30,110 nt of DNA from a virus, in IMG/VR virus record IMGVR_UViG_3300042381_000460, positions 1-30,110 of that record; one strand, 5' to 3'. The translations under genes were made by a program, and so were the position numbers. The notes beneath the pieces are model-generated. The model was given only the letters and a program-made list of their open reading frames with translations. It did no database searches and was not told the DNA's origin. Shown here in pieces: positions 3,352-5,936 of the stretch. Positions within the stretch are counted from its first letter, which is position 1. Every line of letters starts with the position of its first letter.

Positions 3352-4236
3352 TCAAAACTCAGAAATACTTTCTAATAAGTATTTAAGCCTATTTTCTACA
3401 AAGTAATTTAGTAAATTTCGCCTGTCACCTGATGGACCTTTTTGATAAGATTCAACAATTTTCTGTTGGATTTCCACAGGCGTTTGATCCAAGTCAATCA
3501 ACATCTGATTTCTTTTGAAGTTTCTTAACATCAAATCATCACAAAACTTTTCAGGGTCTCCAAGGGCAACCCATTCTGCGAGCTTGTCTTTTCGTATTGG
3601 TTTCTGTCGAGCACCGTCGGTCACAAAAACAGAATCACTCGACAAGAAATTTGGAACACCATCGCCTGAATCGCCAGTGATAATGTGCTCAAGCAAAACT
3701 TTTTGTGCATTATCAGTTGTAAGAAACTTCTTCATCATGGGCGAAAACTGTTTCACATTTGAGAACTTCTGTAGCTGAACAAAATCTTTATCACCCGATA
3801 GGATAAGAACATCTTCTGGTTGGGGGTCAAGAGTGTTTGTCGAAAGTTTGTGTGTCTGAGTGTAGCGCACCATTGTGCCAATAATATCGTCAGCTTCAGC
3901 ACCATCAACTTGAATTACTTTGTATGGAAACTTTTCTTTGATCTCATCACGAATCTTGTTGAGTGTTGTAAAGATGAGATTCCAGTCATGCTTTGATGCA
4001 TCACGGGCTTTCTTGCGATTGGCTTTGTAGTATGGGAATGCATCACGGCGCCAGTATCGTCTGTCATCAGCACAAAACACCATCTCACCATACTTGTCAG
4101 CAAACTTCTTCTTGTATGAAAGAATAGAAGAAAGCACCATATGGCGAATCATATCTTCAGAAAGTTGAGAAGTTGGGTTAGAACTAATCTGAGACATCAG
4201 GTTTGAAATCAGAGTTTGGTTGAAGTCAATTAATAT
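3352..4236 (-). CDS. rnh: RNase H, 5'-3' exonuclease/flap endonuclease (T4 Rnh type)
   Basis: T4 RNase H removes RNA primers and nearby DNA from lagging-strand fragments using two metal ions. The conserved acidic sites are visible: LIDFNQ (Asp4), CADDRRYWRRD (about 55-65) with the helical arch YYKANRKKARD, DGAEADD (111-117), SGDKDF (148-152) and GDSGDG (189-194). The end LLESISEF matches T4 closely. The first ATG (4197) would delete the essential N-terminal strand with its Asp. That strand is encoded upstream in frame, but between the stop TGA and 4197 there is no ATG, GTG or TTG. AGGAGG (4244-4249) lies seven bases before an ATA codon at 4234-4236, which I take as the start (294 aa). A sequencing error or a nearby ATT start are alternatives. 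Confidence 0.9.
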   Translation of the reverse strand: MLIDFNQTLISNLMSQISSNPTSQLSEDMIRHMVLSSILSYKKKFADKYGEMVFCADDRRYWRRDAFPYYKANRKKARDASKHDWNLIFTTLNKIRDEIKEKFPYKVIQVDGAEADDIIGTMVRYTQTHKLSTNTLDPQPEDVLILSGDKDFVQLQKFSNVKQFSPMMKKFLTTDNAQKVLLEHIITGDSGDGVPNFLSSDSVFVTDGARQKPIRKDKLAEWVALGDPEKFCDDLMLRNFKRNQMLIDLDQTPVEIQQKIVESYQKGPSGDRRNLLNYFVENRLKYLLESISEF

Positions 4237-4273
4237 GATAAGGCCTCCTACTGTGTCAATATCGATAATAACA

Positions 4274-4306: not shown

Positions 4307-4783
4307 TTATTTTTGTGGCTTGGCTCTATGGATAAAAACCAATCCAGGAAGAGTTCCATTTGACCATGCGATCCTGCCCGATTGCTCAAATCCATTTTTC
4401 AAATAGAAGTGGCATGCACGTTCATTTTCTTCACGAACTGACAGATACACATTGGCTGCACATTCGGCACAGAATCGTTTCATGACTTCAGACGCATCAA
4501 TACGCTTGTCTACATTTCTATATGGATTCAATATCTGATGAAGTATGAAATCGCCTCGCTGGGCTTCAACATTACCAATACGCTGTCTACGCTTGTATTG
4601 ATTGAAAATGATTATGACCCCATCTTCGTAAATGACGTTGCCTGCAAATATGTTTCGCTCAACATAATCTTTTCGTATGTGAGGAAACCACTCGCGGCAA
4701 TTATAGAAGTGACTAAAGATCTCATCTAGCTGATCTATTGTCGCTCTATTCAACTTCGTCTGGGAGGAGAGATTTAAGCTCAT
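4307..4783 (-). CDS. GNAT-family N-acetyltransferase-like protein, 158 aa
   Basis: The C-terminal half carries the GNAT pattern: a beta strand (NVYLSVREEN), then N-E-R-A-C-H-F-Y-L-K-N-G-F, the usual acetyl-CoA-binding helix and following loop, then a strand ending in LVFIHR. Such enzymes transfer an acetyl group from acetyl-CoA to an amine on protein or small molecule; the substrate is unknown here. The ATG at 4781-4783 has GGAG six bases upstream; a longer frame to 4801 would need a TTG. The gene overlaps the end of the GNAT/oxygenase fusion by 38 bases, so two acetyltransferase-like domains are encoded side by side. No membrane segment is seen. Confidence 0.8.
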   Translation of the reverse strand: MSLNLSSQTKLNRATIDQLDEIFSHFYNCREWFPHIRKDYVERNIFAGNVIYEDGVIIIFNQYKRRQRIGNVEAQRGDFILHQILNPYRNVDKRIDASEVMKRFCAECAANVYLSVREENERACHFYLKNGFEQSGRIAWSNGTLPGLVFIHRAKPQK

Positions 4784-5936
4784 TTGTAGCTCCGATATCA
4801 ATTACAAGGTGTATGCGCTCTTCATTACCACCATTTATAGCTCTGTGTGGCTTGCGTATGTCAAGATACCACAGCTCTCCCTTTGTCATGTTTACTGTGC
4901 GCTCTTGTCCTCTGTAATCCCATACCGTGAAGTCTACTTTTGGGTTTGTCTTGATTGGCAAGTGAATGCGCATCAACGTGCCATCAGTAACACCAGCATC
5001 AGGCTCAACTTGATCTGTGTGTCGAGTGAGTTCACCTCCACCTGGAGCAAGTCTCATAAATCGAATGCGCTCTTGAGTTCCAAGTCCAAGTAGTTTTACA
5101 ACTTCTTCAACTTCAGGAAACACTGCTCGCATTTCTGTATCTTGAAGAGCATATGACTCATTAGCATGTTCTTTGTTCCACGCTTCGCCCATGCACACTG
5201 GCTTAGAGATAAAGGATGGGTCTTGTGAAAACCCTCTGAGTGAGATTGCAGACCATGCACGTCCTTTGTTGTGCTTTGAGTAGTGATTTGCATACTCAAC
5301 ATCAAGTGCATCAAGTTTCTTTGCAATCTTGTCGCACAACTTTGTGAGTTCAGGCGTCTTTAATTTAACGAGTGAAAGTTGTTCTGCTGGATCAACATAT
5401 GGATGCTTTCGTGCTGTTGTTGCGTCAACTGCATCTTTGAAGTACACACCGTAGATCTCAGAGAACGTAGTAACTTTAATACCAACTTTTTTAAAGCCCG
5501 CTTTCTCAATGACGTTGCGTTGTGATTCATCTTCTTCCCAAATGTATGCCCAAGTCGATTGTGTTGTGTCCTTTGATGCCAATTCTTTGATTGCATCAAT
5601 CATAATCTTGGTTGAGCCGCCATCAACAACACCAATAGCATTAATGATTCTGTCTCCCCTGAGTTTCTTTCCAATGATGACATCGTAGTACATGACAATG
5701 TTTGTGCTCGTCTTTGCAACGTGAGTGTCAATATATCCAGCGCCGTTTATAGGAACTAATCTTTGTTTAGAAAGAGAGTCTGCGATCTTTGGTCCATTCC
5801 ACTGCGCAAACGGAGAGAATGCAAACTTGTTGTAACATGCAAAATTATCTTTAATTGCGTTAATGTGTGCTAGACTAAAACCTTTTTGCCAAGGCTTCTG
5901 TTGTGTCGTCTCTTGTTCAATGTGTTCTGTGCTCAT
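4746..5936 (-). CDS. fusion: GNAT-like domain plus Asp/Asn hydroxylase-type 2-oxoglutarate oxygenase, 396 aa
   Basis: Residues about 50-170 look like a GNAT acetyltransferase fold (VMYYDVIIGKK, then WAYIWEEDESQRNVIEKAGF). Residues about 190-390 resemble the aspartyl/asparaginyl beta-hydroxylase family: RFMRLAPGG before RHTDQ (His306, Asp308 as candidate iron ligands), RIHLPIKTN, GELWYLDIRKPH with His364, and ERIHLVID with Arg374 as the likely 2-oxoglutarate contact. Such enzymes use Fe(II) and 2-oxoglutarate to hydroxylate protein side chains or small molecules. The partnership of acetyltransferase and hydroxylase domains, followed by another acetyltransferase gene, suggests modification of one target, possibly a virion or host protein or nucleic acid; this is inference. 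The ATG at 5934-5936 has no strong ribosome binding site. Confidence 0.85.
   Translation of the reverse strand: MSTEHIEQETTQQKPWQKGFSLAHINAIKDNFACYNKFAFSPFAQWNGPKIADSLSKQRLVPINGAGYIDTHVAKTSTNIVMYYDVIIGKKLRGDRIINAIGVVDGGSTKIMIDAIKELASKDTTQSTWAYIWEEDESQRNVIEKAGFKKVGIKVTTFSEIYGVYFKDAVDATTARKHPYVDPAEQLSLVKLKTPELTKLCDKIAKKLDALDVEYANHYSKHNKGRAWSAISLRGFSQDPSFISKPVCMGEAWNKEHANESYALQDTEMRAVFPEVEEVVKLLGLGTQERIRFMRLAPGGGELTRHTDQVEPDAGVTDGTLMRIHLPIKTNPKVDFTVWDYRGQERTVNMTKGELWYLDIRKPHRAINGGNEERIHLVIDIGATNELKSLLPDEVE

Follow-up and report, generated by a model that had tools for sequence, protein, structure and literature searches.

As far as known, translation starts at AUU or AUC are restricted to a handful of genes, infC among them, and these codons are disregarded by gene finders. 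In the infC gene for initiation factor IF3, the start codon is ATT in E. coli and ATC in Streptomyces, and starts of this kind are repressed by IF3 (PMC5472188). For sigR of Streptomyces, repression by IF3 of a GTC start has been shown experimentally (PMC5472188). Among prokaryotes, one switch from AUG to AUU has been counted in 61,358 ancestral AUG starts, and stronger Shine-Dalgarno sequences have been found to accompany weak starts (PMC5622118). A search of the open-access literature yielded no description of the trait reported here in phages.

The stretch of DNA analyzed here, hereafter the window, is a virus contig of 30,110 bases that encodes a T4-type RNase H/5' nuclease (rnh) on the minus strand (3352-4239, TGA stop at 3354-3352). 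The gene product exceeds the cut-offs of both PF02739 (5'-3' exonuclease, N-terminal) and PF09293 (T4 RNase H, C-terminal), matches phrog_107 (2.4e-59) and aligns with T4 RNase H (PDB 1tfr), a member of the same protein family, over its full length. The motifs LIDF, CADD, EADD, GDKDF and GDSGD line up with the metal-binding acids of the T4 active site, and these acidic residues are conserved across relatives. Judged by its domains and metal-site residues, the predicted product is an intact T4-type RNase H. The reading frame is open from 4290 to 3352; its 32nd codon, an ATG (4197-4195), is the earliest ATG, GTG or TTG. As pointed out in the initial annotation, no standard start occurs between the upstream in-frame stop and this ATG, and the LIDFNQ strand with the metal-binding Asp is encoded 5' of it (4233-4216), such that a start there would lose this residue. 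It is also correct that AGGAGG (4249-4244) is located seven nucleotides before an ATA codon (4236-4234) that is followed by ATT at 4230-4228. The comparison drawn at that time with AUU-started infC fits: rnh features AUC in a place where AUG, GUG and UUG are absent, preceded by a strong Shine-Dalgarno sequence (-10.2 kcal/mol), infC likewise combines AUU or AUC with a good Shine-Dalgarno sequence, and in both cases the start is overlooked by annotation software. Unlike rnh, infC is a cellular gene subject to autoregulation by IF3, while IF3 control of the phage nucleases is putative.

Comparison with relatives strongly supports the proposed non-AUG start, although the codon originally suggested, ATA or the ATT at 4230, is probably wrong. 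In seven relatives (L004-L008, L031 and L116) an ATG aligns with the ATC at 4239-4237 of the window, directly 5' of the ATA/ATT codon. ATT occupies this column in L002/L003, the nearest relative with 94% protein identity, and is likewise found at the start column of L142/L147 (74% identity), in which there is no upstream ATG whatever. The initial annotation had regarded an ATG at this place in a relative as evidence against a non-AUG start. Many relatives do have ATG there, but this does not refute the idea because both close and distant relatives carry ATT or ATC at the same place. When ATG is absent, it is the ATG column and not the next one that stays ATT/ATC, and ATC is therefore preferred over ATA.

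A start one codon downstream, at ATA, would profit from a spacing of 7 nt to AGGAGG, closer to the usual optimum than the short distance of 4 nt to ATC, and ATA is common to the window, L002 and L147. Still, we consider this improbable. Among start-less relatives the second codon is ATA, ATC (L120/L136) or ATT (L261, L285 and L487, with ATT also as first codon), ATG-started relatives have ATA as codon 2 as well, and in none of the start-less rnh genes is the ATG column occupied by ATA. Furthermore, an unconstrained first triplet would not remain ATT or ATC in 34 of 34 cases. It is also conceivable that translation starts further upstream and that the protein carries an N-terminal extension as in T4 RNase H, where 14 residues precede ICLIDF, a difference to the window protein when read from ATC. 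In L002, the frame MDVRDNKLAGGLIILIDF is indeed open, and an in-frame ATG, matched in the window by ATT (4275-4273), precedes ATA by 13 codons. However, such an upstream start is absent in L142/L147 and in clade B, the residues upstream of the start diverge between the window and L002, and the ATG of L002 overlaps a -10-like hexamer, TAGGAT, so that an mRNA initiated at this promoter would lack it. We thus deem an extension very improbable. Two further ideas were rejected. An out-of-frame ATG in clade B (ATGGAGAAG...) could serve as start only with a +1 frameshift, for which no known motif is present, and its frame is not conserved; for a leader peptide or translational coupling ending at a TAG near the Shine-Dalgarno sequence, distance and frame vary among relatives. 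Taken as the start, ATC 4239-4237 is well supported by the alignments and gives a protein of 295 residues, in which ATA is codon 2 and the first ATG of the frame is the 15th codon. We infer that rnh very probably begins at AUC, preceded by a ribosome-binding site of unusual strength.

A sequencing error, as considered in the initial annotation, or a decaying gene could be suspected when a single metagenomic contig is inspected. This explanation is exceedingly improbable, as the same trait is present on contigs from independent metagenomes (L002/L003; L142; L075/L137/L138/L141; L120/L139) and in an isolate, the frame is intact and the catalytic residues are kept. Comparison of the window rnh with that of L002, which differ at the start by ATC vs ATT, yields a dN of 0.039 and a dS of 0.65 (dN/dS ~0.06), showing that the gene is under purifying selection.

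The isolate is Synechococcus phage BUCT-ZZ01 (ON615601) with Synechococcus elongatus PCC 7942 as its host. Here, the in-frame stop is followed by AAGGAG, 7 nt and ATT ATA CTC TTA GAC, with no standard start in between. The deposited rnh coding sequence starts at a GTG 9 codons further 3' and therefore lacks the metal-binding Asp. Very likely, the gene is misannotated and its true start is the ATT at position 298 (L367:298-325). Other isolates have rnh genes with ATG (Melnitz, S-SZBM1, S-WAM1, S-RIM32, HTVC008M) or GTG (DLP_6). BUCT-ZZ01 on S. elongatus PCC 7942 represents a cultured system with the trait.

All loci fetched comprise 298 distinct rnh genes, 255 of which have ATG at the start column, 31 ATT, 3 ATC, 7 GTG, 2 TTG and none ATA. 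Each of the 34 genes that are devoid of a standard start near this point thus carries ATT or ATC. The proportion of ATT/ATC among all rnh genes is inflated by two scans that selected for ATH-ATH patterns, and drops to a few percent in scans where the start codon played no part. The second of the pattern scans, which used another RNase H subtype, returned 21 contigs, all without a standard start; cellular genomes scanned for the ATT/ATC pattern gave no matches. On a tree of 196 rnh representatives the trait requires 11 changes, at least 9 of which are forced by supported branches, and an 86-row tree places three changes in the groups around the window.

The specificity of the pattern was assessed in a control set of 432 related contigs (3.23 Mb, 6,149 ORFs), in which the start column could be tested for ~1,940 genes. 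ATT or ATC without a nearby standard start was encountered in two families only, rnh (25 genes) and phrog_624 (33 genes), although other families may have been missed because the contigs had been fetched via these very two. Five more flags with assorted codons resemble short or contig-edge ORFs. As only one other family shows ATT/ATC in this control, the pattern in rnh reflects more than chance. Members of phrog_624 are annotated as 'DNA binding protein', are Pyr_excise-like and share the motif NIFYxDxDP. Among 281 distinct members, 225 start with ATG and 42 with ATT (40) or ATC (2), the latter in many separate lineages with 15 changes on the tree, at least 8 of them forced. As far as can be judged from these reconstructions, the predicted AUU/AUC starts arose repeatedly both in rnh and in this one other phage gene family. 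Genes of phrog_624 often have ATT/ATC behind GGAG or AGGAGG at their start (L090:513-541 on the minus strand, L269-L347). In L285 (contig 3300047550_001846), rnh and phrog_624 have ATT starts together.

The duplex of the window AGGAGG with the anti-Shine-Dalgarno sequence is equalled or surpassed in stability by just 0.6% of ATG-started rnh genes. With a threshold of -4 kcal/mol or stronger, a strong Shine-Dalgarno sequence precedes 33 of the 34 rnh genes that carry ATT/ATC, compared with 104 of 254 ATG-started ones (p 2e-16, indicative only since the rows are related and not independent), and 41 of 42 ATT/ATC members of phrog_624 vs 73 of 225 with ATG, where rows are again related. Further upstream, the window contains a -35-like TTTACA (4302-4297) and a -10-like TAATAT (4279-4274), the latter 34 nt 5' of ATC. 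Taken alone, this promoter match is weak, since 27 of 300 shuffled sequences reach its score. The three ATT/ATC lineages around the window share TTTACA, a 17-nt spacer and a -10-like hexamer (TAATAT in the window, TAGGAT in L002, TATAAT in L147) 32-34 nt before the start. The rnh genes of L004-L008, the same gene at 71-83% protein identity, differ from that of the window by an ATG and the lack of a Shine-Dalgarno sequence, and in L004-L006 a -10-like TATACT is located 6 nt before the ATG. The same spacing of a -10-like hexamer, again with the Shine-Dalgarno sequence absent, is seen in L020. This arrangement suggests that these close relatives (L004-L006, L020) have leaderless rnh mRNAs. Leaderless mRNAs require AUG, and the comparison hints that the gain of a leader with a strong Shine-Dalgarno sequence is what permits AUU/AUC. 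Six leaders were analyzed for secondary structure, and no fold beat shuffled sequences.

In the mechanism we propose, fMet-tRNA would initiate at AUC 4239-4237 of the rnh mRNA, and the near-maximal Shine-Dalgarno sequence AGGAGG would compensate for a codon normally rejected by bacterial IF3. The start would be weak, with an efficiency set by the balance of initiation factors or IF3, and would keep a DNA-attacking nuclease low or make its synthesis conditional. As a whole, from the intact RNase H to its weak or conditional synthesis, we regard this explanation as quite probable on the basis of sequence comparison. Of its parts, sensitivity of the start to IF3 is probable by analogy, and limited or regulated rnh expression is plausible; a benefit of low or conditional synthesis would make sense for a flap/5' nuclease. 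In sigR, a very rare start similarly holds a potent protein low, the differences being that another codon (GTC) is used, that a cellular regulator is concerned and that the effect has been demonstrated experimentally.

The main rival concerns function and is compatible with a start at ATC: a strong Shine-Dalgarno sequence may relax selection on the start codon, such that ATT/ATC would result from neutral drift and the weak start would have no regulatory role. Compensation between Shine-Dalgarno sequence and start codon has been described (PMC5622118), in line with the presence of a strong one in every ATT/ATC rnh case but one. Drift would, however, be expected to yield many GTG and TTG starts too, while rnh genes with ATT/ATC outnumber these by 34 to 9 (with two scans having selected for ATT/ATC), and it would reach many genes, while two families alone are affected in the 432-contig control. 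Moreover, the 18-nt block ATGGAGAAGTGTCATTAT upstream of rnh is identical in the clade B members L075, L120 and L136 although agreement at 4-fold sites is as low as 22/61 and 19/62, i.e. near saturation; the spacer with this block may have a role beyond that of a Shine-Dalgarno sequence. We therefore consider neutral drift possible but rather unlikely. The repeated occurrence of AUU/AUC starts suggests deliberately weak, controllable translation. It is tempting to go one step further and to speculate, tentatively and with considerable doubt, that T4-type phages hold a small class of DNA-attacking enzymes (RNase H and the glycosylase-like phrog_624 proteins) under AUU/AUC, with IF3 or the ribosome state of the host setting timing and amount, as a translational-fidelity switch acquired many times. 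A phage-encoded IF3 gene was not found in nine phage records, so that any control by IF3 would rest on the host. If the trait emerged repeatedly in two gene families, phages would be shown to make use of start-codon discrimination; it would also mean that the annotation of phage genomes systematically mis-calls AUU/AUC-started genes, with loss of N-terminal catalytic residues.

The window is free of tRNA genes, and the two clade-A contigs searched encode tRNAs for Glu, Asp, Pro and Asn only. On the 5' side, rnh is neighbored on the same strand by an acetyltransferase-like gene (4307-4801; phrog_1249, weak match) and by one that encodes an Asp/Asn beta-hydroxylase-like domain (4746-5936).
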